DNA of 64,000 nucleotides from Thermoanaerobaculum sp. (GTDB lineage: Bacteria; Acidobacteriota; Thermoanaerobaculia; Multivoradales; UBA5704): NCBI GenBank assembly GCA_021154885.1, contig JAJKHS010000126.1:1-64000 (forward strand), given 5' to 3'. Under the pieces are notes generated by a model. That model was not told the origin of the DNA, searched no databases, and saw nothing but the letters and a program-made list of their open reading frames with translations. Shown piece after piece: positions 47,018 to 64,000 of this stretch. The position numbers and the translations under genes were made by a program. How positions within the stretch are numbered: the first letter of the stretch is position 1; every line of letters starts with the position of its first letter.

Positions 47018-47042
47018 ACTAGGCTTCTCCCACACGCGTAGC

Positions 47043-47072: not shown

Positions 47073-47114
47073 ATGGCGGGACGTCATATAGATGACCGGG
47101 CATTTTAGACCATT

Positions 47115-47126
47115 GAACGACTGTTC
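47115..47126. promoter_or_regulatory. LexA (Cheo-box)-like palindrome
   Basis: GAACGACTGTTC matches GAAC-N4-GTTC, and the symmetry extends one base pair pair to TTGAAC-N4-GTTCAA (47113-47128). It sits in the 264-base divergent region between the barrel gene and the RHS gene, so it could act on either. It may equally be another repressor's operator. Confidence 0.45.
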
Positions 47127-47248
47127 AAGGAGGACCGGGGGAGTGGGGGAGAATTTCCGGAGCCGTCCGGAGCCGGCGAGGGTGAGCTTCCTTGCGCGCG
47201 TCCTTACGGCGATGGCGACGTCCTGGCCCCCACCGGCGGAGGGCATGG

Positions 47249-47254
47249 TATACT
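47249..47254 (+). promoter_or_regulatory. -10-like box for the RHS gene
   Basis: TGGTATACT gives an extended -10 (TGGTATACT; hexamer TATACT) 27 bases before ATG 47282. No clear -35 is seen. Confidence 0.4.
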
Positions 47255-47281
47255 TCTGAAAACGATCAAGTTCTGGTCCCC

Positions 47282-50200
47282 ATGTCCTCTCATACCCCTC
47301 GCGCCGACACCCAAGGCGCCGCCCTATCCTGGAAGATCGAGTACGACGATCAGGGCCGCGTCGCGGCCGAGATCAATCCCGCGGGACGCCGTACGGCGTT
47401 CGAGTATCACGCAGCCGATGGCATAGTCCGGCGCCTAGAGGAAAAGCCACCGGAAGGACCCCATGTGCGATGGGACCTCGATGCCTCCGGCCGTTTGAGC
47501 CGGATGATGGACGGCGAGGGCCCGACGAGCTATATCTACGATACTAATGGACGCCTCCAGCAGGTCCAAAGAACGGATTCGCCAGCGATCACCTACCGCT
47601 ATGACCCGTTCGGTCGCAGGACGAGGATCTCGGTCGGAGACTTTTACCGCGTCGATTATAGCTACGATTTCCTTGGCCGTCTCGAAAAGCGGACAGTCAC
47701 GACGCTGAACCCGAGGACTGGAAGGGAAACGGAGTTTCCCATCAGCTATGAATACCGCACCAGGGACGGCATGGTCATCCGCACCCTCCCCAACGGGATC
47801 AAGACCCGCTGGACATACAACCTTGTCGGTGAGTTGCAGGAAATCGTCCATGTCGACGCGCAGAGCTTCGTCCTGGTGGAGCTCACCTACACCCACGATC
47901 CACAGGGGCGCATCGCGAGCATCAAGGAGCGCTCCCGCCGTGGGGATCTCACCGAGCGCTATACGTACGACAAAATGGGACGACTGACGCAGGCGGCCCG
48001 ATCCGATGGCCGCCTTCACGGTTATTCCTATGACTCAGTGGGCAATCGTTTGGCTGCCACCGCGTCCGCCCGCCCGCCCCAAGCCGCTGAGTTTGACTGG
48101 GCCGGCCGGATCACGGCCCTCGACGGCCAACCGTGCCGGTACGATAGGGAGGGGAACCTGACAGATCTAACCCTCGCCGGTGCGGCCCGCCGGTTCCGCT
48201 TTCACCCAGACGGGCGTCTGGCAGAGGCTCAGAACGGTAACCGACGTGTGCAATACCGCTACGATGGGGAGGGCCGCCTGATTGCGCGCCGGAGCGGCGC
48301 GGCAGAGGCGCGCTTCGTGTGCGATCCATTGTCCCGATTCTGGCAGCCATTGGCGATCCTCGAATCCCACGGGAGCTCGATCCTCGTGGTCTGGGATGGC
48401 GTTACGCCATTGATGCTGATCCGTGATGGGCAGCCCGAGTACTTCCTCCACGACCACCTCGGGTCCGTGCGCGTTCTGGTCGATGCCGGCGGACAGCTTT
48501 CCCGCTACCTCGACTACGACCCGTTTGGCACGCCGGTGACCGACGCGCTGGAGGGAGGAGGCCTCCATCCTCGCTTCGCTGGCCTCTTCTGGGATGTGGA
48601 AGCCGGCCTGTATCTCACCCTTGCACGTGCGTACATGCCGCAAACTGGGAGCTTTTTACAGCCGGACCCCGTACATCGCGTGCCGGTTGATCCACAGGCG
48701 GAGAGCTCTCTCTTTCAGTACTGCAGAGGAAACCCGATCTGTCTCGTCGACCGGCGCGGGGAGGCCGGAGAGTGGTATGAGAATTTTCTTATCTCCGATC
48801 TCAGAGAGAAGAACGGTCGTCTCGCGGAGGACCATCTCTTCGAATGGGCTGAGGAGTTGCCAGGAAGATGGGGAGAGGGCGTCGCCTACTTCAATCTCGC
48901 CTCTGGGATCCGGGATCTGATCTCCAATGCGGCTGAGACGTCAAGCTACCTCCGTGAGCGCCCTGGAGATCCCGAGGGCGACATGAAAGCTCTCTCCTTC
49001 GGCTTGGGCGCATGGGGATTTCTTGCTGGCTTCTCACCGGCGAGTTATTTGGCGTCCTCGTTGGAAATGGGTATAACCCTTGGATCGGCGGCTCGCAGCC
49101 GTGTGCTCCAGAACCGCGCCGAACGCCTGGTGTCGTTCGGCGGGGCTCTTCTGCCAAAGGCCGGAGACCCGGTCGAAAGAGCGGATCTACATGAGGGCGA
49201 GTTCTCGTTGCAGGGGCGCGGCTTCTCGGCTTATGGCGGCTGGCAGCTCATGGGCTCGCACCAGGGCTGGTTCGGACGCAGCCGAGATTCGCTGGCCTGG
49301 GCTCTGTCCACAGCGCAGGAACTGTCGACCGCTGCGGGCGAAAGAATATCGGGAGTGTTCAGCCGACTCGAGGAACGGCATGAGCGTGGTGGCAGCCTCC
49401 TGAATCTCTACGAGCCAACCTCAGTTACCATCATCCGCCGGATCCATGATGCTTATCGAATCAAACGGGGCGGGGGTATGGTCTTGCCTGCCGAGCCGGC
49501 CTCACCGCGAGAATTCCCGACTCCAGAGGCGCCTCAGAGCAAACTAAAAACGGAATTGCCCTACATTCCACGCCGACAGGATTTTCCACCTGACAGACGA
49601 GACCTCCTTCCTCCTCCGCCCCGCCGGCCACCAGGGCCTGTGCCCATTGATGGAGGTCCTCCCGGTGGCGGAGGAGGCGGTGGGTGGGGAGGGAGCAGGA
49701 GCATTCCCACGCCCGTCGGCGGCGTCTACCTGGGCGGTGCCATCAACGCCCTCGAAGGCTTCGGTGCACTGAAGGGCGTCCAGCTGGACTCGAACGGTAA
49801 CCTGGTCCTTCTCGCGGCCGCCAGTGACGATGTGAAGGTGCCTCCGCTCCGCCTGGACGACGTGGTGACTGTCTTCCGATCGGTTTATCTCTTTGGTGAG
49901 GGGCCGACGGTGACCATAGACCCGGCATCGCAGGACCCGAAGAAGTCCCCAATGATCATTCGCCACAGCAAGGCCACCGAGGGGACCTATGTGGGCTGGA
50001 TCCTCTATCAGGCCGATCGTCTCATGAAAGGGTACACCCTGGGCGTCGATAACATCACCGAGCAAGACGTCGTGAGTCGGGTGCCTGGCTACGGCGAGGT
50101 GGTCGACACCATCTACTTCGGCGGCGGTAATCCCGGGAAGCGGCAGAAGGACGGCTACTGGGAGCGCTTCTGGATCGTGCCGTCCGAGGCGCGACGATTC

Positions 50201-52666
50201 GAGGGGCCGCGGCACGAGCTGACACTCGTCGACGTACCTTTGAAGGTCAACACGCAGAGCATGAAGTGGAAGAGAGGGGAACTGGTCGACGATCTTTCGG
50301 CGGAATCCTCCCCGGGAGCCAAGGCGTTCACGGAGTGGTTCACTGCAAACTACGACCAGGTCGCCGCTGAACGATACCTGACGCCTCCGCCGGAGTCCGG
50401 CCTGACCCAACTCGTACCGGTGTTCGCCGAGCTGCAACGCATCGCTCTGATCACCGCCATTGCGGAGACGCTGCGCGACCAAGGGGTGCCCATTCCGTTT
50501 TGGATGCGGGACCACAACGTAAGGTCCGTGCCTTTCGAGAAGACGACGCCTGGCATGCAGGTGGCTCGTGAAAAAGGCAACGTCAGCACCCGTATCTTCG
50601 GTGGCGTCAGCCTCTCGCCCGGCAGCCAAGATGTAAAAACCTTCACCGCTGTTACCCAGCTTGCAAGCCTTCCCCAGGAACAGCGCCGCGAAGTGGAGCA
50701 CGGAGTGAAGTCGGCCTCCGCGCTCGAGGACGCCCTGGCTACCAGCTCAGTGCTCGTGGGCGCTTCCCCGCTGCGGGTCGAACGCATCACTCACGAGGGA
50801 CAGGAACTTTGCACCATCGCTATTCCAGGCACCACTACGCACGCGGTCGGTGCCTGTCGTTTCGAGGAGGTGGACCTCGTAGCACCGCTTTCGGATGGCC
50901 GACTCCTGAAACTTGTCCGCCGTCACAACTCATTCTTCGCGCTGGACGGTCCCTGGGGGCCGGGCTGGACGCTCGACCTGCCGCGCCTGATCGAAACCAG
51001 AATCCCTGTACAGCGCGACCGGGATTCCGTCAACTACGCTACAGCCCGCGAGTTGATCACGCCTCTCAACAGCATCTACGCACGCTTCCGCGATCTGCGC
51101 ATCGTGCCCGAGCTGCGGAACAGCCGGCTTCAGGTTCCCGATCATGACGGAGGGATGTTCTACGGTCTTGCGAACGATCGTCCCAAGTTTCTCGGAAAGA
51201 GCGAAACTCACCTGCTGATCCTCAAAGACGGGACGCGGTGGCATTTCACCTTGCAAGGCGACCTGGCAGCGATCGAAGAGGGCGGCCTGGTGACCCTTTA
51301 CGATCGCGATTCACACGGGCGAATCACGCGCATCGTCGGGCTGCTCGGCGGAGTCAAGGAAGCCGCAATCACTCTCCACTACAACTCGCAGGGCCGCCTG
51401 GATTACGCAGAGGCCTCAGCCTCAAGCGCCGGCGGCAACCCACCCAAGCTCCGCGTCGACTACGAGTACGACTCGTCGGGACGGCTGACCGGGGTCCACT
51501 CCTCCCAAGGCTTGATTGGCTACCTCTACGAGGGTCCATGGGTAAAAGCGATCACCTGGCGGGCCGACGACGGCAACGATCAATCCATCGGCGAGGAGAT
51601 CGCACTGAGGACCTTCGTATACAACCGTCAGGGACAGTTGCTGGAGGAAACCACAGGCCAGACCACCACTCGCCATACCATCCTCGCCGGTCCCGAAGCG
51701 CTCACCGTCACCTCCACGACTGGAGAGGGTGACGCCTTGGCGGAGAGCACCCGCTTCGACTCGCGGCTTAGACCGCTGGAATCGACCACCGCCGGCGGCA
51801 TGCGCACCTGGTGGCATTACCCCCCGGAGGGCGGAGTCGAGGTCGAGATCATGGAGCCCGGTCAGTCCACAATCCGTATGACCCAGTCTGTCGAGGCTCG
51901 CCGCTGGACCCTGCGCGTCGGCGATGCCCCACCGGTCGACGTCGATTACGACCCGGCCGGTCGGCTGGTGGCGCTGGTCGAAGGCGGCCAGAAAATCATC
52001 GATCAGCAATGGCGATCGGACGGCCAGATCGCCAGTATAGAGATCGGGCCACGAGCGGTCTCTTGCCAGTATAACGATCTCGCACTCCTCTCCTCGGTGA
52101 TCGAGCATCCGTCCGCCGAGAAGGGCACGTTCCAGCATTGGCAGGAGACGACCTACGACAGACAGGGTCGCCCCATCGCACTGGCCAACCACGAAGGCTT
52201 GAAGCTGGCGATTGCTTATGACGCCAACGGCAGGCCGGCATCCATGGTGCAGAAGACACCCAAGGGCGACGTGGGCTTCAAACTCCGTCGTGACGACCAG
52301 GGCCGTTTACAGGCCGTGCAGAGTCCGTGGGGTGACACCGCCTGTATTTACGACAAGGAGGGGGAGTTGCGGCAGGTCGCCACGACCCGCGCTGGACGGA
52401 AGGCTTGGGCCGAGCTCGAAGGCGGTGCCGTGCGGCGCCGGCTCGACTTCGATGGCGGTGAGACCATCTTCGACTACCATCAGGAGGGCTCCCACGCAGG
52501 CCTGCTGCGGGAAGTCCTCGCTCCGGATGGCCTGAGACTCACCTATAGCTACGATGAGCGATCCCGGCTCACCCGGGTCCGCGTGGGTCAGATTCGCGAG
52601 GTCGAAGTTACTTACGACGATTTCGGACGCCTGGTAACCTACTCTTGGACTCCAGCCAGCGAGTAG
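47282..52666 (+). CDS. Giant RHS/YD-repeat protein with inverted domain order
   Basis: A protein of about 1794 aa with no signal peptide from ATG 47282; an earlier in-frame start at 47192 gives no better leader. Residues of about 10-380 are YD repeats (for example YRYDPFGRRTRI, YDKMGRLTQAARSDG). Residues of about 385-495 are the RHS core (DHLGSVRVLVDAGGQLSRYL, DYDPFGTPV, AGLYLTLARAYMPQTGSFLQ, PDP, NP). A unique region of about 290 residues, a Pro/Gly linker (about 780-806) and an unrecognised globular domain (about 815-1130) follow. Then comes an RHS entry segment (GPWGPGWTLDLPRL) and a second YD block to the C-terminus with no second core. RHS shells normally encapsulate a C-terminal toxin; here core plus tip precede the N-terminal-type part. 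No toxin motif is recognised. Domain order is observed; meaning is inference. Confidence 0.88.
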   Translation: MSSHTPRADTQGAALSWKIEYDDQGRVAAEINPAGRRTAFEYHAADGIVRRLEEKPPEGPHVRWDLDASGRLSRMMDGEGPTSYIYDTNGRLQQVQRTDSPAITYRYDPFGRRTRISVGDFYRVDYSYDFLGRLEKRTVTTLNPRTGRETEFPISYEYRTRDGMVIRTLPNGIKTRWTYNLVGELQEIVHVDAQSFVLVELTYTHDPQGRIASIKERSRRGDLTERYTYDKMGRLTQAARSDGRLHGYSYDSVGNRLAATASARPPQAAEFDWAGRITALDGQPCRYDREGNLTDLTLAGAARRFRFHPDGRLAEAQNGNRRVQYRYDGEGRLIARRSGAAEARFVCDPLSRFWQPLAILESHGSSILVVWDGVTPLMLIRDGQPEYFLHDHLGSVRVLVDAGGQLSRYLDYDPFGTPVTDALEGGGLHPRFAGLFWDVEAGLYLTLARAYMPQTGSFLQPDPVHRVPVDPQAESSLFQYCRGNPICLVDRRGEAGEWYENFLISDLREKNGRLAEDHLFEWAEELPGRWGEGVAYFNLASGIRDLISNAAETSSYLRERPGDPEGDMKALSFGLGAWGFLAGFSPASYLASSLEMGITLGSAARSRVLQNRAERLVSFGGALLPKAGDPVERADLHEGEFSLQGRGFSAYGGWQLMGSHQGWFGRSRDSLAWALSTAQELSTAAGERISGVFSRLEERHERGGSLLNLYEPTSVTIIRRIHDAYRIKRGGGMVLPAEPASPREFPTPEAPQSKLKTELPYIPRRQDFPPDRRDLLPPPPRRPPGPVPIDGGPPGGGGGGGWGGSRSIPTPVGGVYLGGAINALEGFGALKGVQLDSNGNLVLLAAASDDVKVPPLRLDDVVTVFRSVYLFGEGPTVTIDPASQDPKKSPMIIRHSKATEGTYVGWILYQADRLMKGYTLGVDNITEQDVVSRVPGYGEVVDTIYFGGGNPGKRQKDGYWERFWIVPSEARRFEGPRHELTLVDVPLKVNTQSMKWKRGELVDDLSAESSPGAKAFTEWFTANYDQVAAERYLTPPPESGLTQLVPVFAELQRIALITAIAETLRDQGVPIPFWMRDHNVRSVPFEKTTPGMQVAREKGNVSTRIFGGVSLSPGSQDVKTFTAVTQLASLPQEQRREVEHGVKSASALEDALATSSVLVGASPLRVERITHEGQELCTIAIPGTTTHAVGACRFEEVDLVAPLSDGRLLKLVRRHNSFFALDGPWGPGWTLDLPRLIETRIPVQRDRDSVNYATARELITPLNSIYARFRDLRIVPELRNSRLQVPDHDGGMFYGLANDRPKFLGKSETHLLILKDGTRWHFTLQGDLAAIEEGGLVTLYDRDSHGRITRIVGLLGGVKEAAITLHYNSQGRLDYAEASASSAGGNPPKLRVDYEYDSSGRLTGVHSSQGLIGYLYEGPWVKAITWRADDGNDQSIGEEIALRTFVYNRQGQLLEETTGQTTTRHTILAGPEALTVTSTTGEGDALAESTRFDSRLRPLESTTAGGMRTWWHYPPEGGVEVEIMEPGQSTIRMTQSVEARRWTLRVGDAPPVDVDYDPAGRLVALVEGGQKIIDQQWRSDGQIASIEIGPRAVSCQYNDLALLSSVIEHPSAEKGTFQHWQETTYDRQGRPIALANHEGLKLAIAYDANGRPASMVQKTPKGDVGFKLRRDDQGRLQAVQSPWGDTACIYDKEGELRQVATTRAGRKAWAELEGGAVRRRLDFDGGETIFDYHQEGSHAGLLREVLAPDGLRLTYSYDERSRLTRVRVGQIREVEVTYDDFGRLVTYSWTPASE

Positions 52667-52750
52667 CAGACTGTGCCCCCGGGGAGAGAGCACGGTAAGG
52701 GGCAACCTTCATGAGGTAGAATAGGCACATGCTGAAGCGAGGAAATCCGC

Positions 52751-54565
52751 ATGCCTGTCGGCCTCGTCAGTGAGGGGAGGATCGGAAGGTTCGATCTCCG
52801 CGGCCTGCTGGGGCGCGGCGGCTCCGGGGACGTCCACCTCGCCTACGATCCGGACCGCGGCTCCCTGATCGCCCTGAAGCTGATCCGGATCGGCTTGGAC
52901 CCCGAAATGCTGGAGGCCGAGAGACGAGGCGTCGCCCTCCAGCAGCGACTGCAGCCGAAGGTCCCCCAGATCGCGGCCATCTTTGACTTCGGCGAAATCG
53001 ACGGCTTCTTTTTCGTCGCCATGGAGTTTATTGAGGGCGTCGACCTTGCCGAGATCCTCAAGCCGGGTCGCCTGGCTCCGGCGAAGGCGGTCGACGTCGC
53101 CACTCAGCTCTGCACGATCCTGGAATCCATGGAACGCGTCTCCAAGGACCTGGAAGAGAAGGGCCGGCGGGTCATCCACAGCGACATCAAGCCGGCGAAC
53201 GTCCGGCTTCAGGAAGGGGACCGGGTCCGTCTCCTCGACTTCGGCGTGGCGAAGAGCGTCACGCTCTCTAAGAAGTTCACCCGCAACGTCTTCGGCAGCA
53301 CTCCCTACCTCGCTCCCGAGCGGCTGTCCAGCGAGGTCGTGGACTCCCACACGGATCTGTGGGCGGTGAGCGTCGTCCTCTACGAGATGATCGCCGGCTA
53401 CGTGCCCTTCCCTGGCGAGACCACAGACGCCATCGAGCGGCGAATCCGCAGCGGCCAGCCGCCCGCGCCCCTGCCCGCGGACTGTCCGGCGGCTCTCAAG
53501 TCCATCCTCCTCAAGTGTCTCCGCACGGAGCCCGCCCTTCGCTTTCCAGACGCGGCCACCCTCCGGCGCCATCTGGAAGCGTTCCGGGCCGGCCGGCCGC
53601 TGGCGATCTCGGAGCCGACGCGGAAGATTCCGCACGTGAGGCAGGAAACTGCGCCCCCACCGGCTCCAGAACAACGGCCCAAGCTCAGCCGCTCTGAGAG
53701 ACACCGCCGCGGCGCCCGGCGTTGGCGCATGGCTCTGGGGATGGCCCTGCTGCTCGTCCTCGCGGGTGCCCTGGCCTCTTGCGGGTATGCCTGGTCCGAA
53801 GGAAAAGCGATCGAAAAGACCCTGGTCGAGCCCGGCGCCGATCTGACCGCTCTCTACGCCCGGTACCGTCAGGCCGGACGATACGATCCTTTTGGACTCT
53901 GCCTGTCGGGAGCGGCCCAGGCTCTGAAGGGTGCGTTCGCGGCCGTTGCGGACCGCACTCTGGGGAGGTTCCGCACCGCAGCCAGGGTTGAGCGGCAGGA
54001 TTGGGAGGATGCGCTGCGCTGGCTACGGGCTGCGGCCGAGCTGGTTGAGTCGGACGAGAGCGTGCAGGCCAGGATCACCTTCTGTGAAGGCCAGCTCACC
54101 CGCCTTGACGCCGAAGCCCTGTTCGGCAGCAATCCCGAGGGGGCAAGACAGAAATGGCAGGAGGCCCTTCAGAGCTTCGAGAGGTCAAAATCGATCGCTC
54201 CCGAGCTCGTCGAGGTCTACATGGCCCTGGCTTCGATGTATGGCGATCCAAGGACCCGCTTGCAGGATACGAAGAAACTCCGTGAGGCGCTCGACGAGGC
54301 GGAGCGGCGGGGAGCCGGCCGGAGCGAGCGCGGCAGGCAGGCCCTCCTGGAAGCGTACGTCCGGGAGGCGAGGCAGGCCTCCCGGAGAGCGTCCCGAGCC
54401 CAGGGACAGGAGAGGATCGACCTGCTTTACAAGGCCCTGGACGGCTACGATGGCGCCGTAAACCTTTGCAAAGACCTGAGGTCCGGAACCCCAGCCGCCT
54501 GCCGGGAGGCTCAGGAACAGCAGACGGCGGTCGGCCAGGAGCTCGCCGGGAAAGGGCAGGTCTAG
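52751..54565 (+). CDS. Transmembrane Ser/Thr protein kinase (Hanks type)
   Basis: A 604-aa protein. The kinase domain covers residues 12-280: Gly loop GRGGSGDVHLAYD, ALKLIR (Lys43), VIHSDIKPANV (catalytic Asp145 in HSD instead of HRD), DFGVAK and YLAPERL. The arginine of HRD is missing, so activation-loop control may differ, but catalytic residues are intact. One TM helix lies at about 328-346, followed by a helical extracytoplasmic part (TPR-like, residues about 390-600). GAGG precedes ATG 52751. Placed 84 bases after the RHS gene and convergent with the tubulin-like operon, whose proteins are possible substrates (inference). Confidence 0.94.
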   Translation: MPVGLVSEGRIGRFDLRGLLGRGGSGDVHLAYDPDRGSLIALKLIRIGLDPEMLEAERRGVALQQRLQPKVPQIAAIFDFGEIDGFFFVAMEFIEGVDLAEILKPGRLAPAKAVDVATQLCTILESMERVSKDLEEKGRRVIHSDIKPANVRLQEGDRVRLLDFGVAKSVTLSKKFTRNVFGSTPYLAPERLSSEVVDSHTDLWAVSVVLYEMIAGYVPFPGETTDAIERRIRSGQPPAPLPADCPAALKSILLKCLRTEPALRFPDAATLRRHLEAFRAGRPLAISEPTRKIPHVRQETAPPPAPEQRPKLSRSERHRRGARRWRMALGMALLLVLAGALASCGYAWSEGKAIEKTLVEPGADLTALYARYRQAGRYDPFGLCLSGAAQALKGAFAAVADRTLGRFRTAARVERQDWEDALRWLRAAAELVESDESVQARITFCEGQLTRLDAEALFGSNPEGARQKWQEALQSFERSKSIAPELVEVYMALASMYGDPRTRLQDTKKLREALDEAERRGAGRSERGRQALLEAYVREARQASRRASRAQGQERIDLLYKALDGYDGAVNLCKDLRSGTPAACREAQEQQTAVGQELAGKGQV

Positions 54566-54569: not shown

Positions 54570-55277
54570 TCAAGGGGCCAGGGCGGCTCGTTGGAAGACC
54601 TCAGGTCGGACCAGTTGGACTTCGCAGATCCTCTTCTTTCCGTCCAGCTCGCTATAATTAAGATAAAGCCGGTAACCCTCCAACTCATACTTGTCCCAGT
54701 CGCCGACACCCAATTCGGGTTCCACGTGTCTATGCAAACTCGTGTCGATCTGGGTCTGCGCCTCGGCACGCAGCATTCCGAATTGAATGCCCAGTGGCAG
54801 TGATTCCTTATAGATAGCGTGTTGATGTTCATCCGGCAGGCCAGAGAAAAGTCGAACCTTGTCAAGGCGATCCTCGGCGTCGAACAGGAACTCCATGCCG
54901 CGAAGCTTGAAACAGAAAGCCTTCCCGCCATGATCAACAGACTCCTGCTCTGATTTACCGAGATCCTTGAAAGCGTTCCTGACGTCCTCTTCCTCGCGGC
55001 TCTTTCTTAGGAGAGAGACTAGCTTTATAACAGGAGGAGGTGGCTGCTCAACCATTCCTCCAGCGTCCTTAGAGGTTTCCGTGTTTGATGCCGTCTCGCC
55101 AGAACGAGGCTGGTTTTTTATTAGCTTGTCTGCGGTCAACGCTGACGCCACATTGGTGACAAAGTTGGGAATCATCAGAATTATGCCCGCAATGACTGTT
55201 CCTATCACAGTAGCAAGGGCGGTCAACAAAAAAATCTTTTTTTGGGAGTGTTCCAAGGACGCCCACCATCTCCACAT
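54570..55277 (-). CDS. Small membrane-anchored protein of unknown function
   Basis: A protein of about 235 aa. An N-terminal TM helix lies at about residues 14-37 (KIFLLTALATVIGTVIAGII). A low-complexity linker with PPPP is followed by a soluble alpha/beta domain (KAFCFKLRGMEFLFDAEDRL, YELEGYRLYLNYSELDGKKR). I do not recognise the domain. ATG 55277 is preferred because GAGGGAG stands 6 bases before it; in-frame ATG and TTG lie just upstream. Its 3' end is 4 bases from the convergent kinase gene. It lies 76 bases downstream of the tubulin-like operon, so it may belong to it. Confidence 0.75.
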   Translation of the reverse strand: MWRWWASLEHSQKKIFLLTALATVIGTVIAGIILMIPNFVTNVASALTADKLIKNQPRSGETASNTETSKDAGGMVEQPPPPVIKLVSLLRKSREEEDVRNAFKDLGKSEQESVDHGGKAFCFKLRGMEFLFDAEDRLDKVRLFSGLPDEHQHAIYKESLPLGIQFGMLRAEAQTQIDTSLHRHVEPELGVGDWDKYELEGYRLYLNYSELDGKKRICEVQLVRPEVFQRAALAP

Positions 55278-55353
55278 ATGCATCTCCCTCAATAAGGTAG
55301 ATTCAACCCCTGTTACACGTAAACTTGCATTATCGCACTTCTTGGAAAGCCTG

Positions 55354-57333
55354 TCAACCCCCCGTCACCCGGTATCCCTGCGTCAACTGAAAGATCAGGA
55401 TCGCTTCGCCCTCGATCTCCTCGATGACCTTCTGGTCCGGGTACTGGTGGCCGAGGGCGCTGCGCAGGTCTGCGGAGAGGCCGCTGGGCAGGGCGAGGAA
55501 GGTCTGGAGGGAGGTCCCTGGCACGGGCATCCAGGGCAGGGCGCTGGCTCTCGCCTTCTCCAGCGCCTCGCGCCAGGAGGATGCGTCCGGTCCGCCGCTG
55601 CCACTGATGACCCGGAAGACGTCGCTCCACTCCAGATCCGCCAGGAGCAGGCAGCTCTTGCGGGCGGACTCTCGCAGAAGATCGGAGAGGCTCGCTCCAG
55701 GCCGGCCCACCGCCGCTCGCAGGGCAGCCGTCTCCGATTCCCAGAAGCGATGAAGAGATTCTGCTGCGCTGACCGATTTTTCCTCCAGCAGCGCTTGGGT
55801 GACCTCGGGTGAAAAGGGGAAGAGGACCGGGATGGAGTCGACAGGCACCGCAATCTCCGCCCGGAGGGCTTTTTGAGTTTCCTGCCAACTGCTCAGAGCC
55901 TTCTCGTGCCGGCGCACCAGCTCCCGGGCGAGCCAGCTCTGGCCGCGGCGGAAGTTGAGCTCGGGCATCCAATTGCGCAGAGGGATGACGGGCCCCAATC
56001 TGGAGATCTTCCTTTTGAATCCTTTTAGGTAAACCATGACGGCGCCGAGGCCTGCGGCGCCGGCGACGATGGAGGCGGGGATCTTGGAGTCCGAGAAGAT
56101 CGCCACACCGGCCGCGATCAGGCAGGCGAGACAGGCCACCGCGAAGGCGGCGGCCCGCGTCTGATCGAGCTCCTCCTCGAAGAACACCTGAGGCTGAGGC
56201 TGCTTGATCCTGCCAGTCTGCTTTTCGGCGTACCAGCGGGCGAAGGTGTCGTCCATGAAATGAGCAAGCTTCAGGGCGGTCTGGGCCTCGAGCTGCTTCA
56301 AGGCCGAGATCCGCCGCTTGAGGAGAGGCTCCAGTTTTTCGAGCCGCCAGCCCATGCCGCGCAACGCCGAGCGCAGCGTCTCGTGGCTCTTCTCCTCGCA
56401 GGCGGCGAGCTTGCCGAGCAGGTCTTCGGCAGGGGGCGGACCCGACGCTGGGGGCTCCGCCAGGATCTCGGGCGACACCTCCTCCAGCCAGGCATCCGAG
56501 GGCTCGGTCCAGGCTTCGGGAGGAGCGGAAAGCGCGGCCAGGAAGCGGCGCACCATGTCGCGATAGAGGGCTCCGGAGGTCGCCTCGATGCCCATCTGCG
56601 AGGTCAGCCGCCATTCGGTGAAACCGAGAGAGAGGTAGCGGCCCCCCTGCCCGAGCCGGGCCTGCTCGGACTGGATGCGGGCGAAGAGCACGGGAGCCAT
56701 TTCGCCGAGCGTGAGGTGGTAGAGAATTCCGGCGGCCTGGGCCCGGGCCTCCCCGGCGTCGTTCACCGCCATCCCCTCGGTGTTGATGCGGTCGAGGAGG
56801 AGAATGACGTCGAAGATGCCTCCATCCGACCCATCGGCGTAGGGCAGGGGCTGGACCAGGCCGGGCGGGGCCGCCTCTCCGGAGGTCTCGTAGGTCCCAT
56901 CGGCGAGGAGGAGGATGCGGCCGATCCGCCGGAAACGGCGCCGGAGATGCTTGAGGGCGGCGAGCGTCTCCTTGGGAAGGGCGACTCCGGAGTCGGGCGC
57001 AAAGCCCGGGCTCACCAGGACGAGGTCGAGCAGGTCCAGCCCTCCTCCCGGCGTCTGCCAGCGCTCGACGTCGAGCATGGTGCGAACGGCTGCTTCCAGA
57101 CCCGTTTCGAACCGGGTCGCCGAGGCGGCCCAGTCCGGACGCCTCCAGGAGGCTCCGGGAGCGCGCGAGAACCAGGCCAGCCGTCCCTCTTCCTCTTCCA
57201 CGACGTGGCAGCAGTGGACGCTCGCCTGCGACACTCCGGGGCGACCGGCGAGAGCGCTGAGGAGCTCGCGGCCGGCGCCGTCGAAGGCGACGGCAAACAG
57301 GCCGAGCTTCTGCCGACCGGGCTGCGGTCTCAT
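55354..57333 (-). CDS. Two-TM protein with possible degenerate tubulin-like N-terminus
   Basis: A 659-aa protein. The N-terminal 260 residues contain segments that line up by eye with the tubulin-like neighbour: FDVILLLDRINTEGMAVNDA compares with FDHCYLLSGLQQGGTTDVET, followed in both by A...L.LT. The nucleotide loop GGTGSG is absent. A helical stretch (residues about 310-370) precedes two TM helices at about 391-433 and a cytoplasmic C-terminus of about 220 residues. Its ATG overlaps the tubulin-like stop (TGATG), so the two are made together. Membrane anchoring of the tubulin-like protein is the likely job (inference). No standard family is recognised. Confidence 0.75.
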   Translation of the reverse strand: MRPQPGRQKLGLFAVAFDGAGRELLSALAGRPGVSQASVHCCHVVEEEEGRLAWFSRAPGASWRRPDWAASATRFETGLEAAVRTMLDVERWQTPGGGLDLLDLVLVSPGFAPDSGVALPKETLAALKHLRRRFRRIGRILLLADGTYETSGEAAPPGLVQPLPYADGSDGGIFDVILLLDRINTEGMAVNDAGEARAQAAGILYHLTLGEMAPVLFARIQSEQARLGQGGRYLSLGFTEWRLTSQMGIEATSGALYRDMVRRFLAALSAPPEAWTEPSDAWLEEVSPEILAEPPASGPPPAEDLLGKLAACEEKSHETLRSALRGMGWRLEKLEPLLKRRISALKQLEAQTALKLAHFMDDTFARWYAEKQTGRIKQPQPQVFFEEELDQTRAAAFAVACLACLIAAGVAIFSDSKIPASIVAGAAGLGAVMVYLKGFKRKISRLGPVIPLRNWMPELNFRRGQSWLARELVRRHEKALSSWQETQKALRAEIAVPVDSIPVLFPFSPEVTQALLEEKSVSAAESLHRFWESETAALRAAVGRPGASLSDLLRESARKSCLLLADLEWSDVFRVISGSGGPDASSWREALEKARASALPWMPVPGTSLQTFLALPSGLSADLRSALGHQYPDQKVIEEIEGEAILIFQLTQGYRVTGG

Positions 57334-60125
57334 CAGAGCCCCACGTCCTCGACTCGCAGCTTGTTCTTGAGCGCCCGGATCTCGGCGTTGAGCTGATAGA
57401 TGTCGAGGCTCAGGAAATGCTCGGAGCGCTTGGGATCGAAAGCTCCCTCGAGCGTGGTTTCGAGCGTCTTGATGTAACCGCCGAGCCGCTGGTGCCAGTC
57501 GTCCTGGCCTTCGTTCTTCCCCACCTCGAGCTGGATCTCCACGAGGTTGTCCCCGTCCCGGCAGAAGGTCTGGAAGGCCTCCCGCCGGTAGCGGCCGAGG
57601 GGCGCTGGAGCGTCACTATTGTTGTTGAAAACGTATTCTTTCCCATCCGACCGCCGGATCAGACCCAGGAGATTGGCCGCGCTGAACAGGAACAGGCTCT
57701 GCAGCTCCCGAGGGTCCTCGCCCGCGAACTCGATACGAGTCACCCAGCGCCGGTCGTTGAAGAAGTGCAGGTCGTAACGCTGCTCTTCCACCACCGACGC
57801 GATGAGGCTCCTGCGGTACGCAGGGAGACTCTTGAGGCCAGGAAGAGAGATGCCGTGCTCGGTGCGGAAGATCGGCACGTAATCGTCCCGCTGCTCGTCG
57901 ACGGCGGAAATCTGCCGCCAGCTCTCACGGACCGCATCGTACAGAATCGAATCCGAGCGGACGCCGATGGCCGAGATCTCCAGCCGGTTGTCCCTCATGC
58001 TGTAGGACTCGTGAAGCTCCCAGTTCGCCTGCGCCCGCGCCAGCAGCACGGCGACCTCGGTCTTGTACTTCTCGCTGGGGTGCTCGAAGCACTCGGCGAG
58101 GAGGCGGTCGCAGTTCATGCCCGCCTCACTCTGGAAATAGTGATGGATCGCCTCGGTACACAGGTTGTAGAACCGGGCGTTGACCTCCTTGGGCTCCAGC
58201 GCCGCCCAGGTCCGCGACTCGGTGACGAGCTTGCCGAGAACTTCGCGCAGGAGGCGGTCCTGGTTCGGACCGACCAGGGCTCTGCGGAACCATTTCAAAG
58301 GTCCGACGCTGGCGCGTGCCCGCTGGGTGCGATAGTACGAATTCTCGTCGCGCGAAACCTCGAGACGAAGGTTGTTGAGCATGTCCTTGATCCGCGTCCA
58401 CGGCGCGATGAGCTCCTGTTGGACGATCGAGATCAGCTTTTCGATGAGGGGCAGTTGGTCGCGATACACGACAGCCGCGGTCTTGTTCCGCACGTGCTCG
58501 TTCCAGGCCTCGTAATCCTTGCCAAGGAGCTGCTTCGGCTCCTTGCCCACGACGCTCCCCTGCTCGACCGCCTCGGCCGTGGAGCGTTGCTTTTCGGCGA
58601 TGCCCTCCAGCTCCTGCGCCTTGTCGCGGATCTGGCCCTGGAAAGCCCGGAGCATGTCGGCGCAACGGCCGAGATAGCGCAGGTTGCGGTCGAGCCCCCC
58701 CGGCTGGAGCAGGCTGGAGCGGATCTGGTCGGAAAGGTAGCGGCGCAGCTCACCCTCGTCGAAGAGCTTCTCCTGGCTCAGGCGCTTGCGCTCGCGCCGT
58801 TGGGCGTCGTGGGCCTCCACCAGCAGCCGCTGGAGCTCCGCCTTGCCGACCTCCTGCTTCCTCTTGTCGCCCTGGAGGTAGATGTTCACCGTCGTCAGAT
58901 CGAGGTCGAGCGGCGGCAGGATCTCGTCGATGCGGCGGAAATCGTTGATCTGCAGCCGTTCCTTGAAGCTCTGCAAGTCCTCCGGAGCCACGGCCTCGGC
59001 TTCGGCCACGGACTGGAGGAGCTGCTGGTGAAGCTGGTGGGCGAGGTCCGGACCGAGGGACTCGCCGAGCAGCTCCTCCGGCAGCTCGACGCCGAGCACG
59101 CCGTAGCTGCTGTAGCAGCAGACCCGGCCCAGCTCGTCCCGGGTCGACTTCCGCTGGCCGGCCATGTTGATGACGCCTTCAGAAATCCGCTGCCCGGTCT
59201 GGGAGAGCGTCAGTAGGGTGATGGCTTCGCCGATGACGGCGGAGAGGGTCTCGACGTCGGTGGTGCCGCCCTGCTGCAGACCGCTCAGCAGATAGCAATG
59301 ATCGAAGGGTGCGCGCCGGGAGGTCTCTGGGCGGTTCTGCACGTATTCCACGGTCCAGGGATCGTCGCTCGTGGCGTTCATGTAGCGGTCCAGCTCCTGG
59401 AGCGCCGTGTAGGCGTTCGCCTCCAGGGCCTTCATCACCACGGGTTTGCCGCGGAACGCCTCCGGCAGCACCAGGTGCCCGGTGACCGTGACCTCGCGGT
59501 TGGTGTGCTCCTCCGCCCAGCGCCGCAAGTCGAACGCAAGGTCGAGGAAAATGCCGGAGCCCGTGCCGCCGCAGACGGAACCGATCAGATGGATGTCGAT
59601 GCCCGCCTCGAGGTTGACCCGAATCCCCGTCTGCTGATGGAAACGGAGGGCGAGATCGCTGTCCGTCACCGTCGTCAGGGCCTCCTGGATGGCGGCCTCC
59701 ACGCGGTCCCGGCGATAGAAGTAACAGAGCCGGCCAATGGGACGGATGCCGCCGGCGCCGAAGGCGACCTGCTGGAAGTTCAAGCGCGGAGGAAGCCATT
59801 TCGCCCAGTGAGGAAAGGCCTGCCCCGAGACGATGTCGGAGATGACGCTCTGGGCGTTGAACCCTCCGAGATAGACGTACTCGGAGTTGTCCACCATCCG
59901 GGGCTCGCGATTGTCCTGGAACGCCGTGTCGAAGGCGCGAAACGCGACGTAGTGATGCCGCTCTCCGACGAAGTGCTCGATCCGGGCCCGCGCCGCTTTG
60001 GCCGCGGCCGTTCCGGTGCCGCCGGTCGCGATGACCAGGGTCGGACGGACGACGCGGGCCATGCCGGTCCAGTCCGGTTCCCGGCGGATCTGAGAAATTG
60101 GCGATCTGTTCCTGTCCACGATCAT
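57333..60125 (-). CDS. Tubulin/FtsZ-like protein (Tubulin_2 / FtsZl1-type)
   Basis: A 930-aa protein. Residues 30-400 have the tubulin-superfamily pattern: loop 1 VIATGGTGTAAAKAARARI (33-42), a hydrophobic strand IDIHLIGSVCGGTGSGIFLD with the GTP signature GGTGSG at 186-191, and PFDHCYLLSGLQQGG. A long helical region follows (about 430-640), then a C-terminal domain with ELQSLFLFSAANLLGLI. Bacterial members were predicted (FtsZl1 family) to work with vWA proteins in membrane remodelling. AGGAGCTAACCC precedes ATG 60125. It is in an overlapping operon with a vWA protein and a two-TM protein. GTP binding is predicted from motif only. Confidence 0.88.
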   Translation of the reverse strand: MIVDRNRSPISQIRREPDWTGMARVVRPTLVIATGGTGTAAAKAARARIEHFVGERHHYVAFRAFDTAFQDNREPRMVDNSEYVYLGGFNAQSVISDIVSGQAFPHWAKWLPPRLNFQQVAFGAGGIRPIGRLCYFYRRDRVEAAIQEALTTVTDSDLALRFHQQTGIRVNLEAGIDIHLIGSVCGGTGSGIFLDLAFDLRRWAEEHTNREVTVTGHLVLPEAFRGKPVVMKALEANAYTALQELDRYMNATSDDPWTVEYVQNRPETSRRAPFDHCYLLSGLQQGGTTDVETLSAVIGEAITLLTLSQTGQRISEGVINMAGQRKSTRDELGRVCCYSSYGVLGVELPEELLGESLGPDLAHQLHQQLLQSVAEAEAVAPEDLQSFKERLQINDFRRIDEILPPLDLDLTTVNIYLQGDKRKQEVGKAELQRLLVEAHDAQRRERKRLSQEKLFDEGELRRYLSDQIRSSLLQPGGLDRNLRYLGRCADMLRAFQGQIRDKAQELEGIAEKQRSTAEAVEQGSVVGKEPKQLLGKDYEAWNEHVRNKTAAVVYRDQLPLIEKLISIVQQELIAPWTRIKDMLNNLRLEVSRDENSYYRTQRARASVGPLKWFRRALVGPNQDRLLREVLGKLVTESRTWAALEPKEVNARFYNLCTEAIHHYFQSEAGMNCDRLLAECFEHPSEKYKTEVAVLLARAQANWELHESYSMRDNRLEISAIGVRSDSILYDAVRESWRQISAVDEQRDDYVPIFRTEHGISLPGLKSLPAYRRSLIASVVEEQRYDLHFFNDRRWVTRIEFAGEDPRELQSLFLFSAANLLGLIRRSDGKEYVFNNNSDAPAPLGRYRREAFQTFCRDGDNLVEIQLEVGKNEGQDDWHQRLGGYIKTLETTLEGAFDPKRSEHFLSLDIYQLNAEIRALKNKLRVEDVGL

Positions 60126-60159: not shown

Positions 60160-62670
60160 TCAACGGTCCTTGTGGCGGATGGTGACCCGGCTGCCCTGGT
60201 GCTCGAGCTCGATCCTGGTTCCGCGCGCAAGCTCATGAAACGTGACGATCTCTCCCTCGGCGCCGAGGAGCCGCTCCGCCGCAGGCTGCTTCGAAGGAGC
60301 GAGCTTCCTGAGCTTCCAGCCGGAGCCGGCGAGGAGACGGATCTTGTAGTCGTCCCCGCTGTTGGGCCGGATCTCGAAACCCTGCTCGCCCTTCTCCAGC
60401 TTGCGCGGGGAGGTCTCGACCTCGACGTCGCCTTGAGAATCGGTCGTGACGAGAAATCTTTTATGCTTGTCTCCCGGTTGCCAGACCCGGCTCTCTCCGC
60501 CCGCCACGTCCACGGCGAGGGGGAAATCAGCGCGCCATCTCTCCTGGAGCCCGCGCAGCCACTGCCGCGGGCCTGGGAAAAGGAAGGCCAGGGCCGTGGC
60601 GAGAAGCAGGGCCAGGAGCGCATAGAGCAGCCAGCGCAGGATCCGCTTGCCGGGCGGCTCGGGAACCGCGATCAGCAGCGTCCTCTGCCACGAGGTCAGG
60701 CCGTCGCTCGCCTGGACGATCAACGGCCGGCCGAGAGCCGCATCCGTGAGCAGCTCCGGAGCGCTGCGGTAGCAGACCCGATGGCCGTCCTCCTGGAGGG
60801 CCTTGCCGTTCAGCGCATCGCGCGAAGGGCCGAAGAGAAGCTTCAGACCGGACTGCTCAGGCGAGGAGACGTCGATCAGGAGCTGTTGCGCTCCCTCGCA
60901 GCCCTTCTGAGGATCGGCCCACCACTCGAAGACCAGGCGCGCAGGCGGCTCCGTGAGCATCTCGACGGCGGGGCTCTTCCCGTTGGGTTGAGGCTGATCC
61001 ATGCGGACCGCCCCGCCGAGCTTCCCTTGCTTCTGAAGCCGAGCCGCGAGAGAGAATCGGTCGGGTGTGGACAGCGGCGACTCCTTGAAGGCCTGGAAGC
61101 GGACCGTCCGCGACTTGAGGGACCAGGCCTCCGGCGTCTTACCGACCTCGATGGAGGCGATGACCTCGTAGGTTCCCGGCAGGCGGGTGCCGGTAAGCTG
61201 GCCGGTGAGACGCAACAACCCGTCGGGCGAGGTCGTGAGGACTTCGGGCCTGAGCTTCAACTCCTGCGTGCCGGCATTGGGCAGAGTCACTTGAGCCGTC
61301 GCGGCGATGGGGACGTCCTTCAGGATGTTGCGCCACTCTTCGACGCTCGGACCCGCAGGCTGCGGCAGCCATTTCAGCTCCAGGGCGAGATCCACCGGGT
61401 TGCCGGCGAGGATTTTTTCCGGCGGTTTGCCATCCTGCCAGTAGAAACGGACGTTGTTGACGGGCAGCACGGAGAAGCGGTGATAGGCCTCCTGGCCCGG
61501 GCTCAGGTTGACTTCCGCCAGGTTCCGCGACTCGACCAGCCAGGTGGCGTATTGAGACGTGGCGCGGACGTTCACCTTGTCGATCTCGGCATCTGGCGGA
61601 GTGAGTTGGTAGCTGGTACGGCTCTTGTCGTACTGCAGGGTGACGTCCTTTTTCTTCTTGTCCTTCCAGATCTTGACCTGGATCGGCGACTCGACAGGCG
61701 CCGAGACGATCACCTTGTTGGTGCCCGGGGGGAGGACCAGGCGCCGGCGCTCCTGGTCGGGAAAGATCGTGTCCCACATCACGTCCAGGACGTTGTCGTA
61801 CCGCACTGAACGGGCCTTGCCTCCGAACTGTTCCGCGAGAGCCCGGAGGACGTAGGGACCTTCGCTCTCGATCATCCTGCCGTCGGGGCCCACCCGGCCG
61901 GCAAGGTCTTCCACGACTCGCAAGCCCTTCTCCAGGAACGAGGGACCGCCCAGGCGGGCCTCGTTGAGCCGCTGATAGATCAGTTTCTGCCGCTCCTCGT
62001 CATTGCGGCCGTGGAGACCCTCGTCCAGGGCCAGAGTGAAGACGGAGACCTTGTTGCGGGCGAGCTCTTTCATCACCGGATTGTCGGTGCGCAGGAAGTT
62101 GCGATACCGGTCGAGCTCCTCCTTTTCGAGCGTCCCTTGAGATTTTCGGTTGATCTTTCCCAGGTCCAGCTCGCCGTCCGAGATCAGCAGGAGGTTCTTC
62201 TTGGCCTCTTTGTGCTGGGCGTTGAAGAGATCGGCCGCCGTGCCGATGGCGCTGATGTAGTCCGTCCGGGAGCCGATGTCGCCGGGGATCTGCTCGTTCC
62301 ACCAACCTTCGCCCTGAATGTCGCTCCATTGCACGGGCTGAACTGGCAGCTTCTGGATGCGTCGCGTCTGGTTGCCGAACACGTACACGTCCAGATAGTT
62401 GTTCTCGTTCTGGTTCTTCTCGCTGAGTGAAGCCACCAGAGTCTGCATCATCACGAGGATTTCGTTGCGCAGCCGGTAACCGGTGGTCCCGAGCGCCTGG
62501 CTCTGCTCGCGGTCCCGCTGCTCCGAGCTCAGGGAGACGTCCAGCAGGACGATCCAATATTGCGCTTCAGGCTCCTTCGAATCCTTTTTGGCGCCGCGCT
62601 CCTGGGCCAGGGACCACGGCGCCAGCAAAAGCGCCACGAGGAGAGCCGCAGCGGTTCGGCGATAGCTCAT
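60160..62670 (-). CDS. Periplasmic vWA-domain protein with C-terminal TM helix
   Basis: An 836-aa protein. A signal peptide covers residues 1-22 (TAAALLVALLLAPWSLAQ). The vWA domain begins at YWIVLLDVSLSSE, whose DxSxS (44-48) is an intact MIDAS; further acidic positions are in LLLISDGELDLG. Central regions (about 300-650) read as Ig-like or beta-rich modules. One TM helix near 675-700 (RWLLYALLALLLATALAFLF) is followed by a C-terminal cytoplasmic part of about 120 residues. It overlaps the upstream coiled-coil gene by 4 bases and precedes the tubulin-like gene by 34. It could link periplasmic ligands to the cytoplasmic filament; that is inference. Confidence 0.88.
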   Translation of the reverse strand: MSYRRTAAALLVALLLAPWSLAQERGAKKDSKEPEAQYWIVLLDVSLSSEQRDREQSQALGTTGYRLRNEILVMMQTLVASLSEKNQNENNYLDVYVFGNQTRRIQKLPVQPVQWSDIQGEGWWNEQIPGDIGSRTDYISAIGTAADLFNAQHKEAKKNLLLISDGELDLGKINRKSQGTLEKEELDRYRNFLRTDNPVMKELARNKVSVFTLALDEGLHGRNDEERQKLIYQRLNEARLGGPSFLEKGLRVVEDLAGRVGPDGRMIESEGPYVLRALAEQFGGKARSVRYDNVLDVMWDTIFPDQERRRLVLPPGTNKVIVSAPVESPIQVKIWKDKKKKDVTLQYDKSRTSYQLTPPDAEIDKVNVRATSQYATWLVESRNLAEVNLSPGQEAYHRFSVLPVNNVRFYWQDGKPPEKILAGNPVDLALELKWLPQPAGPSVEEWRNILKDVPIAATAQVTLPNAGTQELKLRPEVLTTSPDGLLRLTGQLTGTRLPGTYEVIASIEVGKTPEAWSLKSRTVRFQAFKESPLSTPDRFSLAARLQKQGKLGGAVRMDQPQPNGKSPAVEMLTEPPARLVFEWWADPQKGCEGAQQLLIDVSSPEQSGLKLLFGPSRDALNGKALQEDGHRVCYRSAPELLTDAALGRPLIVQASDGLTSWQRTLLIAVPEPPGKRILRWLLYALLALLLATALAFLFPGPRQWLRGLQERWRADFPLAVDVAGGESRVWQPGDKHKRFLVTTDSQGDVEVETSPRKLEKGEQGFEIRPNSGDDYKIRLLAGSGWKLRKLAPSKQPAAERLLGAEGEIVTFHELARGTRIELEHQGSRVTIRHKDR

Positions 62671-64000
62671 CGATTCTCTCCCTTTCCTTCCGAGGCCGGC
62701 GGCTCCGGCAATTCCTTGTAGTAGCGGTCGTAGAGAACCTCAGTTTTGAAACGCTGCCATCGGGTCATATTGCGCTTGGCGCGCTGCCGAAGCTCCTCAA
62801 TCTCGCGCCGCCGGCGGGTCCGAATCCTGCTTCCCTCCAGGTCCAGGGCGCGCACCGTCTGGTCCATCTCCTTTAGAGCGTAGAAGGGCTTTCCCTTGTT
62901 CTGGCGGAGAAGATCGCGCAACTTCTTGACTTGATCGTCCAACTCCTTCTCCTCTGCCCTGAGCGCCTGCTTTCGCTCCACCTCCCGCTGCCGGGCCTCC
63001 ACAAATGAGGGATCCCACCGCTGGTGGATCTTCAGGAGGTCGTCCGCGGCCTTCTGGTTCTCCTCGGAAGGGTCTGCGAGGAGCTCGTCGATCTGGCCGC
63101 GCAGCAGCGCCAGGGCCTCTTTCCGTTTCTCCTGGACCTCGTCCTCGAGATCGGGATCCCGCACGGCCGCGAGCAACTGGAGGGCCCTTTTCGGATCGGG
63201 ATCGTCGCCGAGAAGGACCTCCTCGGCCTCGCCCAATTTGTCGTAGCTACGTTTCCGTTTTTGATTGTCGTATCCCTTGGAGACTTGGCGCAGCTCTTTG
63301 CTCAACTCGCGGGCGGGCTTGAAATTGGGCTGGAGAGAGAAGAGACGCTTGAGCTTCTCCGTCAGAGCGTTGGCCGTCTCGGGCGTCCGATCCTTCTCCA
63401 GTTGCACCCGCAGGGCCTCGACGAAGGCCGACGGGACCCACTCGAGAGCTTCCCTGGTGTGTGGGTCGCGGCGATCGAGCCTTTTCATCTCAAGAGCCCA
63501 TTCCAAGGCCCGCTCGGGATCTCCAGCGTCACGCGCTTCCATGTAGGCGTAGAACGCCTTGTCATAAGGATTGGAATCCTGTTTGTCCTGCTCAGCGCGG
63601 CGCTCGGCGATTTTGATCTCCCGGCGGATCTCTCGGGCGCCGGCGTGATCAGGATCGAGGGCCTCGATCTTCGCGCATTGCTTGGCAGCGTCGTCGAGCC
63701 GTCCACGTTCGAGAAAGCCCTTGGCCTCCTCGGACCATTGCTCGATGAGCTTTTCCTCAGCCATCCGCAATTGGTGGCGAGCCCTCGACTCTTCCGGCAC
63801 CGCCGCCAGGATGGCGTTGGCGATTCCCTGGGCTTCGTTCCACTGCTGGGCTTCGAGCGCTTCCTGAGTCTGCCGGAGCAACTGACTGATCAGGGCTTGA
63901 CGACGGGCCGTGAGCCGTCCATCGCCAGGGTCTTTCTCGAGCGCCTCGACGCAATGGCGGAGCGCCTCCCGGTCGTTCCGGTCCCGCAACAAAGCTTGCA
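62667..64000 (-). CDS. Coiled-coil/TPR-like cytoplasmic protein, 5' end beyond the window
   Basis: At least 444 codons are visible; the frame stays open to the window edge, so the start is missing. The sequence is almost all charged alpha-helix, with several degenerate TPR-like units (ALEALQQWNEAQGIANAILA-like patterns, GRLDDAAKQCAKIEALDPDH). A basic, coiled-coil C-terminus runs around LKEMDQTVRALDLEG and RQRAKRNMTRWQRF. No TM is seen in the visible part. Its stop overlaps the vWA start (ATGA), so it is the first visible gene of the tubulin-like operon. The missing N-terminus could carry a catalytic domain such as a kinase. Confidence 0.8.
   Translation of the reverse strand, partial: QALLRDRNDREALRHCVEALEKDPGDGRLTARRQALISQLLRQTQEALEAQQWNEAQGIANAILAAVPEESRARHQLRMAEEKLIEQWSEEAKGFLERGRLDDAAKQCAKIEALDPDHAGAREIRREIKIAERRAEQDKQDSNPYDKAFYAYMEARDAGDPERALEWALEMKRLDRRDPHTREALEWVPSAFVEALRVQLEKDRTPETANALTEKLKRLFSLQPNFKPARELSKELRQVSKGYDNQKRKRSYDKLGEAEEVLLGDDPDPKRALQLLAAVRDPDLEDEVQEKRKEALALLRGQIDELLADPSEENQKAADDLLKIHQRWDPSFVEARQREVERKQALRAEEKELDDQVKKLRDLLRQNKGKPFYALKEMDQTVRALDLEGSRIRTRRRREIEELRQRAKRNMTRWQRFKTEVLYDRYYKELPEPPASEGKGENR

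Follow-up and report, generated by a model that had tools for sequence, protein, structure and literature searches.

Canonical RHS (YD-repeat) cage proteins share one order of modules, in which an entry segment is followed by YD repeats, a core and a variable C-terminal tip. The core plugs the barrel and undergoes aspartyl autoproteolysis after DPLGL-type motifs, as described in PMC8636562, and the cargo lies inside the barrel. In canonical RHS and Tc cages alike, what is released as cargo is the C-terminal end of the chain. Here we describe a gene at positions 47282 to 52666 of a 64,000-nucleotide stretch of Thermoanaerobaculum sp. DNA (assembly GCA_021154885.1, contig JAJKHS010000126.1, positions 1 to 64,000; hereafter the window). 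Its product of 1794 amino acids (aa) appears to work like an RHS/Tc cage and to be built from its parts, but it breaks the defining order of the family: the core (aa 412-493) precedes the entry segment (aa 1189-1234), and the chain terminates in YD repeats rather than in a tip. We conclude, at a probability of roughly 0.6, that the gene encodes an RHS (YD-repeat) cage protein whose circular permutation has been conserved.

Order of modules in the permuted gene and its relatives

The modules are listed below, with aa numbers referring to the window protein (P0001) unless a relative is named and nucleotide positions referring to the window.

47282..52666, + strand: permuted RHS/YD-repeat gene, 1794 aa; ATG start, no internal stop
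47342..48316, + strand: YD2 block, aa 21-345, predicted second half of the canonical RHS shell (PF05593; VIA structural match to 8qja_C)
48437..48763, + strand: RHS core or C-terminal plug, aa 386-494 (TIGR03696 at aa 412-493; alignment of the permuted proteins)
48764..49567, + strand: variable segment, aa 495-762, in the position of the RHS tip but internal (no pairwise similarity among four loci)
49568..49699, + strand: Pro/Gly-rich linker, aa 763-806 (from the sequence)
49700..50827, + strand: M domain, aa 807-1182 (unmatched in Pfam even at E 10; occurs also in non-RHS proteins)
50828..51361, + strand: entry segment, aa 1183-1360 (weak DUF6531 match at aa 1189-1234)
51362..52663, + strand: YD1 block, aa 1361-1794, the protein terminus; with the entry segment, predicted first half of the canonical shell

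An alternative in-frame TTG at 47192 would lengthen the protein by 30 aa. The layout given in the initial annotation, with YD repeats and core first, then a variable region, a Pro/Gly linker, a further domain, an entry segment and terminal YD repeats, was borne out by the Pfam and TIGR matches together with the sequence. RHS repeats were matched by PF05593 at E 1.6e-43, and the core was matched by TIGR03696 within the first third of the protein (E 3.1e-13, 50 bits against a cut-off of 32.5). The whole-protein Pfam list at E 0.01 held only RHS_repeat and TEN_YD-shell and lacked the entry family DUF6531 (PF20148), which gave a weak match when the stretch was scanned alone (E 4e-4, 21.1 bits, below the cut-off of 24.1). 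The G+C content, about 0.70 to the left of the gene, drops to about 0.62 across it (window 47000-52999). Four other RHS-core matches in the same genome fall in large RHS genes with YD repeats upstream of the core, as judged by eye from the ORFs (open reading frames). One of the four lies in an SpvB-type RHS gene (L006:363-8161, contig C154) that extends over two overlapping reading frames.

Four carrier genomes were identified: that of the window (G000), G156, G450 and a Verrucomicrobiales metagenome-assembled genome (MAG; G148). Three distant genomes encode, each in a single ORF, the series YD2 - core - variable segment - M - entry - YD1. G156 and G450 belong to the same phylum as the window genome and to other families, and their ORFs of 1752 aa (P0002) and 1710 aa (P0003) have the identical permuted order at 33% and 26% global identity to the window protein, respectively. 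The core scored above its cut-off at aa 477-556 of the former and aa 434-514 of the latter, and in each a DUF6531 match below the cut-off follows the core (aa 1177-1215 in P0002 and aa 1078-1098 in P0003). In tblastn searches, window aa 15-493 (E 1.2e-78) and 803-1770 (E 1.1e-110) matched locus L028 with ends collinear with the relative's ORF, and aa 18-496 (E 3.2e-60), 816-1070 (E 1.8e-34) and 1367-1779 (E 5.7e-9) matched locus L029 in the same order.

In the fourth genome the order is YD / segment - M - entry - YD, carried by two overlapping ORFs without a recognised core. This divergent version (L022) consists of a first ORF of 481 aa with RHS repeats (E 5.7e-12) and, overlapping it by 4 nucleotides (nt), a second of 1057 aa with a hydrophobic segment, M, DUF6531 above the cut-off (E 6.1e-6) and RHS repeats; the RHS core was found in neither ORF. 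The initial annotation had proposed a search for homologues with the same order, and the outcome is thus two single ORFs and one split pair. The Verrucomicrobiales MAG has a second locus, L014, the one relative returned by a scan with the M + entry part; it is a 3,060-base contig with 62% identity in the best segment to that query, on which an ORF of 967 aa runs from a hydrophobic N-terminus through M, entry and YD repeats to a stop; the contig ends upstream.

No relative was returned by the whole-protein query against genome_contigs, by the M-only query against plasmid records, or from viral contigs, and the M + entry query in the class of the window genome found that genome only (1 of 148). 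A further gene in the phylum of G148 (L038:5400-9665, genome G618) begins with a signal-like N-terminus and M, followed by entry and YD repeats; a frame change interrupts it and no core was found in it. It hints that an unpermuted M-entry-YD order exists, which does not prove that order to be ancestral.

The two YD blocks compared with canonical shells

We built AlphaFold2 models of the two natural halves, aa 1-806 and aa 807-1794, separately. The first had a mean predicted local distance difference test score (pLDDT) of 52.4, with values of about 80 across much of its YD part. In the VIA comparison this N-terminal half (YD2-core) matched the second shell half of 8qja_C (577-1072; Z 27.8, root-mean-square deviation (rmsd) 3.0, 408 aligned residues), and its matches to 8qjd 877-1416, Tse5 623-1163 and Rhs1 809-1342 likewise fell in the second shell half. 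The C-terminal half (entry-YD1) matched the first shell half of 8qja_C (27-433; Z 17.1, rmsd 5.2, 381 aligned) and also 8qjc 360-785 (Z 15.5, rmsd 7.1). The C-terminal half gave 32 rows with Z of at least 10, and 27 of these chains were common to the search with the N-terminal half. In all 27 shared chains the range of the C-terminal half starts earlier than that of the N-terminal half, and in nine, with rmsd of at most 7.3, the two ranges are separate. By our own arithmetic, the gap left unmatched in 8qja_C (434-576) is close in length to the unaligned remainder of YD1 (model 822-988).

A PDB sequence search placed aa 6-323 on a later part of the 8qjd shell (402-715) and aa 1620-1770 on an early part (204-346). 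A second C-terminal stretch fell on 8qjd 408-535, overlapping the region matched by the N-terminal block, and the repeat register is therefore uncertain. The top row for the C-terminal block in this search, a designed WD-40 repeat protein, was discounted, its score being the sum of many stretches that were not significant. Foldseek matched the C-terminal model to RHS, teneurin and Tc families at low template modelling scores (TM-scores).

Block lengths were also compared, counting from the entry tryptophan to the end of the protein and adding YD2 start to core end. The three permuted proteins sum to 1043, 1003 and 1086 aa, and the Rhs1 shell spans residues 272-1357, or 1086 residues (PMC8636562). 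Five canonical RHS proteins served as yardstick, of which L008 and the SpvB-type L007 were not usable; the other three, measured likewise, gave entry-to-core lengths of 1031 (L023), 788 (L024) and 1516 (L009, with an insert by eye). Together, the models support a correspondence of the two ends of the protein to the two halves of one canonical shell, and the two halves plausibly amount to one cage. The initial annotation had left the choice between a circular permutation and a fusion of the tail of one RHS gene to the head of another; the complementary halves and the conserved order favour the former. Such a permutation probably arises when two genes fuse and the outer halves are then lost, and therefore the two readings are not exclusive.

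Two aspartates of the core, D462 (48665-48667) and D490 (48749-48751), are invariant in all three permuted proteins. The PxxxxDPxGL motif described in PMC8636562 reads PxxxxDRRG in the window protein. A canonical RHS protein of the same genome has DRTG, and therefore DR alone is no argument for lost cleavage. The variable segment that follows the core gave no pairwise match at E<=10 among the four loci, and its flanks, unlike the segment itself, match between loci by tblastn. By sequence comparison it is the least conserved part of the protein, as expected of polymorphic cargo. In the model it is partly helical and of low confidence (pLDDT <50). No Pfam match at E 10 pointed to a toxin fold in this region (window:48755-49699), where the model is unreliable, and no toxin type is claimed.

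A hydropathy scan located hydrophobic N-terminal segments in P0002 (aa 51-74) and P0003 (aa 9-40). By eye the segment in P0002 is lipoprotein-like, in which case the start codon would lie later. Since two of the three single-ORF proteins have such N-termini, the cage is probably envelope-bound in those two.

Given that the swap recurs in distant bacteria and that the gene lies beside tubulin-like and other genes of defence type, the changed order probably reflects a functional design rather than a fault of assembly. The order itself is observed directly and the complementarity of the halves comes from models; cage closure, cleavage, toxicity and a link to the gene cluster are inferred. In the arrangement that we propose, the chain would begin and end in the barrel wall with its ends adjacent, the core would plug one end of the barrel and the entry segment the other, and the variable segment would sit within the barrel as cargo, fixed on both sides and connected to the outside via M. 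If the core self-cleaves like canonical cores, the product would be two chains that still form one cage, like TcB-TcC, and the split locus L022 would be a gene-level version of that cleaved two-chain state.

Gene neighbourhood and distribution of the M domain

Downstream of the RHS gene the window holds the following genes.

52751..54565, + strand: Ser/Thr protein kinase, 84 nt past the RHS stop (PF00069, E 4.5e-35)
54570..55292, - strand: 240-aa protein with a hydrophobic N-terminal segment by eye (no Pfam match)
55354..57333, - strand: 659-aa protein (no Pfam match)
57333..60125, - strand: tubulin-like protein, Tubulin_2 (PF13809, E 9.5e-49)
60160..62670, - strand: protein with a weak vWA match (PF13519, VWA_2; E 0.0011; 20 bits, below the cut-off of 27)
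62667..63992, - strand: TPR protein, in part; it continues to contig position 65516

Beyond the window (contig C126 65780-73132; L055, L061) lie a second Tubulin_2 gene, an AAA_5 gene with a sub-threshold bpMoxR match and a trypsin-VMAP-C gene (E 5.7e-31). The cluster formed by window 57333-63992 and C126 65780-73132 is reminiscent of the MoxR-vWA-VMAP ternary conflict systems, to which tubulin-like proteins would be an addition.

The window tubulin gene is 4.7 kb from the RHS gene. In G450, 41 nt separate the RHS gene from a Tubulin_2 gene downstream on the same strand. Next on this strand come genes for one protein that matches MreB below the threshold (HSP70-like by eye), one that weakly matches MotA/ExbB, an OmpA protein and an ion-channel protein (L029:55-4874 and L043:5178-11953); the protein encoded upstream of the RHS gene is vWA-like by eye, with no Pfam match. 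The split locus L022 is followed by a vWA gene (PF00092, E 9.1e-7), and a TPR-CHAT protein is encoded upstream of the RHS gene in G156. Tubulin-like and vWA genes thus both lie near the RHS gene in the window, where the vWA match is weak; G450 has the tubulin gene with no Pfam vWA, and L022 the vWA gene only. Genome-wide there are three Tubulin_2 genes in G000 and one in G450, and the permuted RHS gene is less than 5 kb from one in both of the carriers that have any, a proximity noticed after the fact in two genomes. From this context we infer that the permuted RHS gene probably serves, as effector or sensor, in conflict systems of the tubulin/vWA type that depend on nucleoside triphosphates (NTP).

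The window tubulin protein was found in two of eight relatives, as distant versions with 29-30% identity. Both belong to a set of five genomes of the same taxonomic order; the other three relatives, which are closer (two congeneric, one from the same family), gave no match. G091, a genome from the same family (L092), retains the left-hand neighbours of the RHS gene; by eye its next 2.3 kb, partly masked, contain ordinary metabolic genes, with no RHS match at the corresponding site. Given the patchy tubulin gene and this site, the RHS gene and the cluster look like a lineage-specific insertion.

The M domain, which had no Pfam match even at E 10, was followed separately. With the entry segment it gave no PDB sequence match at E 1, and the structure search barely covered it. 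Over the phylum, an M profile found three of 396 genomes, namely that of the window, G156 and G450. A wider profile found 27 of 396 with the same three far ahead, and three of these 27 genomes carry the permuted RHS genes. Among the other 24 hits, three ORFs that were read (L058, L059 and L060) had no YD blocks or core by eye; the remaining 21 loci gave no core motif with a rough motif applied to the longest plus-strand open stretch, often in the wrong frame. In the phylum of G148, M occurs in six of 387 genomes (G148 with its two loci, the genome of the L038 gene and four others), and by eye the ORFs of the four others are without YD blocks. At class level, M was found in 4 of 162 genomes for G450 and in 3 of 38 for G156, and beyond these two genomes the hits are the ORFs of L056-L060. 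Examples of the domain are L056:6424-9486, L057:3-2960, L058:1912-4230 and L040:3930-5522.

Competing readings and comparison with known systems

Several observations weigh against a permuted cage acting with its gene cluster. The permutation is documented at four loci only. The model of aa 807-1794 (entry-YD1) is mediocre (pLDDT 67.3; predicted TM-score 0.43), and closure into one cage within one molecule is extrapolated from half models made separately. In 18 of the 27 shared chains the ranges of the two halves overlap at their inner ends, with rmsd of at least 14 because the C-terminal model bends. The C-terminal matches to single-chain TcdB2-TccC3 entries (6h6e_F, 6h6f_F, 6suf_F and 6suq) are low (Z 5.8-7.0) and lie within the range of YD2, and in Foldseek the C-terminal half gave better E-values with TcC-length chains (4igl_D, 5kis_B and 6l7i_G) than with TcB-length ones. 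Canonical lengths vary widely, and therefore the length argument is only supportive. The DPxG of the core motif reads DRRG, DRSG and DPTG in the three permuted proteins, a change of DP to DR in two of three. Neither a toxin fold nor an immunity gene was recognised, and the hydropathy scan found no hydrophobic N-terminal segment in the window protein. Lastly, the window tubulin genes are on the strand opposite the RHS gene, and no Tubulin_2 gene is present genome-wide in G156 or G148.

The strongest competitor holds that the protein is an exported, non-toxic scaffold or receptor, akin to teneurin or to a wall-associated YD protein, whose cage serves for binding. This reading is compatible with the permutation, and we regard it as possible, if less probable than not. 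It would account for the missing toxin fold and immunity gene, for the occurrence of M in proteins without RHS blocks and for the hydrophobic N-termini of two of the three proteins; the segment after the core is, against this, the least conserved part, as it would be for polymorphic cargo.

Unlikely, in our view, is a domain-swapped assembly in which YD2-core of one molecule pairs with entry-YD1 of another, to give a dimer or a chain in which the variable segment and M tie the cages together. The stretch between the halves would allow it, since in the window protein the variable segment, the linker and M come to about 690 aa, and the models leave the pairing of the halves unfixed. No observation points directly to such a swap, and one cage per chain accords equally well with the summed block lengths.

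A shade more doubtful still is a tail-to-head fusion whose halves do not form one cage, each being an incomplete shell, a relic or in need of another partner. RHS genes are known to shed and gain tails, which counts in favour of such a fusion, as does the resemblance of the halves to two Tc cage parts that are separate proteins there. Against it, the order is kept in three diverged single ORFs, and the halves are complementary in the better-fitting structural matches.

An assembly artefact has almost no probability, even in a draft genome of 161 contigs, because G156 and G450 independently share the architecture, and with that the assembly join by which the initial annotation might have been refuted is excluded. 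The window RHS gene lies inside a 152,639-base contig. A repeat-mediated join was rejected as well, as the region 45000-56500, when scanned for repeats, yielded no more than two short families (21-22 nt, 81-82% identity); one of these, G+C-rich, has copies just upstream of the gene (47157) and near its end (52422), probably by chance.

The circularly permuted cage thus remains our preferred reading. An extended form of it would be a family of cages with a cargo that runs through the barrel, tethered on either side, and with chain ends that form a seam of the wall and anchor it to the membrane there in some members, opened or loaded by an NTP-driven tubulin/vWA machine of the same cluster; as a whole this is speculative, and we would not expect all of it to hold. 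A permutation that moves the cargo position to the middle of the chain and the chain ends to the wall would need a different route of loading and release, and it offers a natural test of how YD shells fold and open.

A limited literature search found no publication joining Rhs, YD repeat and circular permutation, and none linking by title YD repeat or Rhs with tubulin or vWA. The neighbourhood described here connects an RHS cage with genes of the tubulin-like, vWA-like and MoxR/VMAP types. The operons of FtsZl1 and vWA genes described by Makarova and Koonin 2010 (PMC2875224) are alike in their tubulin-like, vWA, kinase and OmpA-type neighbours, if Tubulin_2 corresponds, as it may, to FtsZl1; they differ in that a permuted RHS gene lies in or beside the cluster here, and Rhs and YD repeats are not mentioned in the main text of that paper. 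Similarly, the MoxR-vWA-VMAP ternary systems of Kaur et al. 2020 (PMC7159879) share the AAA_5 gene with a sub-threshold bpMoxR match, trypsin-VMAP-C and the weak vWA. That paper describes tubulin domains as effectors that are rare in ternary systems, or as components of systems centred on GTPases; its main text likewise mentions neither Rhs nor YD repeat.

The closest relatives in build are the cages themselves. Rhs proteins of the type VI secretion system (T6SS; 8qja, 8qjc, 7pq5 Rhs1 and 8cp6 Tse5) have the same YD shell, core or plug and entry, with a variable segment right after the core, and both permuted halves match their structures. No PAAR or VgrG delivery domain was matched by Pfam in the window protein (E 0.01), P0002 or P0003, nor was an SpvB-type domain or the beta-propeller region of TcB in the window protein (E 0.01). 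In the TcB-TcC cages (4igl, 6l7i and 5kis) the two shell halves are likewise separate modules. In the VIA comparison the N-terminal block matches 6l7i_G and 4igl_B and the C-terminal block 4igl_C and 6l7i_F; from chain length we take the former two, the shorter, to be TcC and the latter two, the longer, to be TcB. For the C-terminal block, Foldseek aligns TcC-length chains as well. The permuted proteins differ from the T6SS-type Rhs proteins in that the halves are swapped and the variable segment is internal rather than C-terminal, and from the Tc cages in that the halves are fused in C-then-B order, with an M domain instead.
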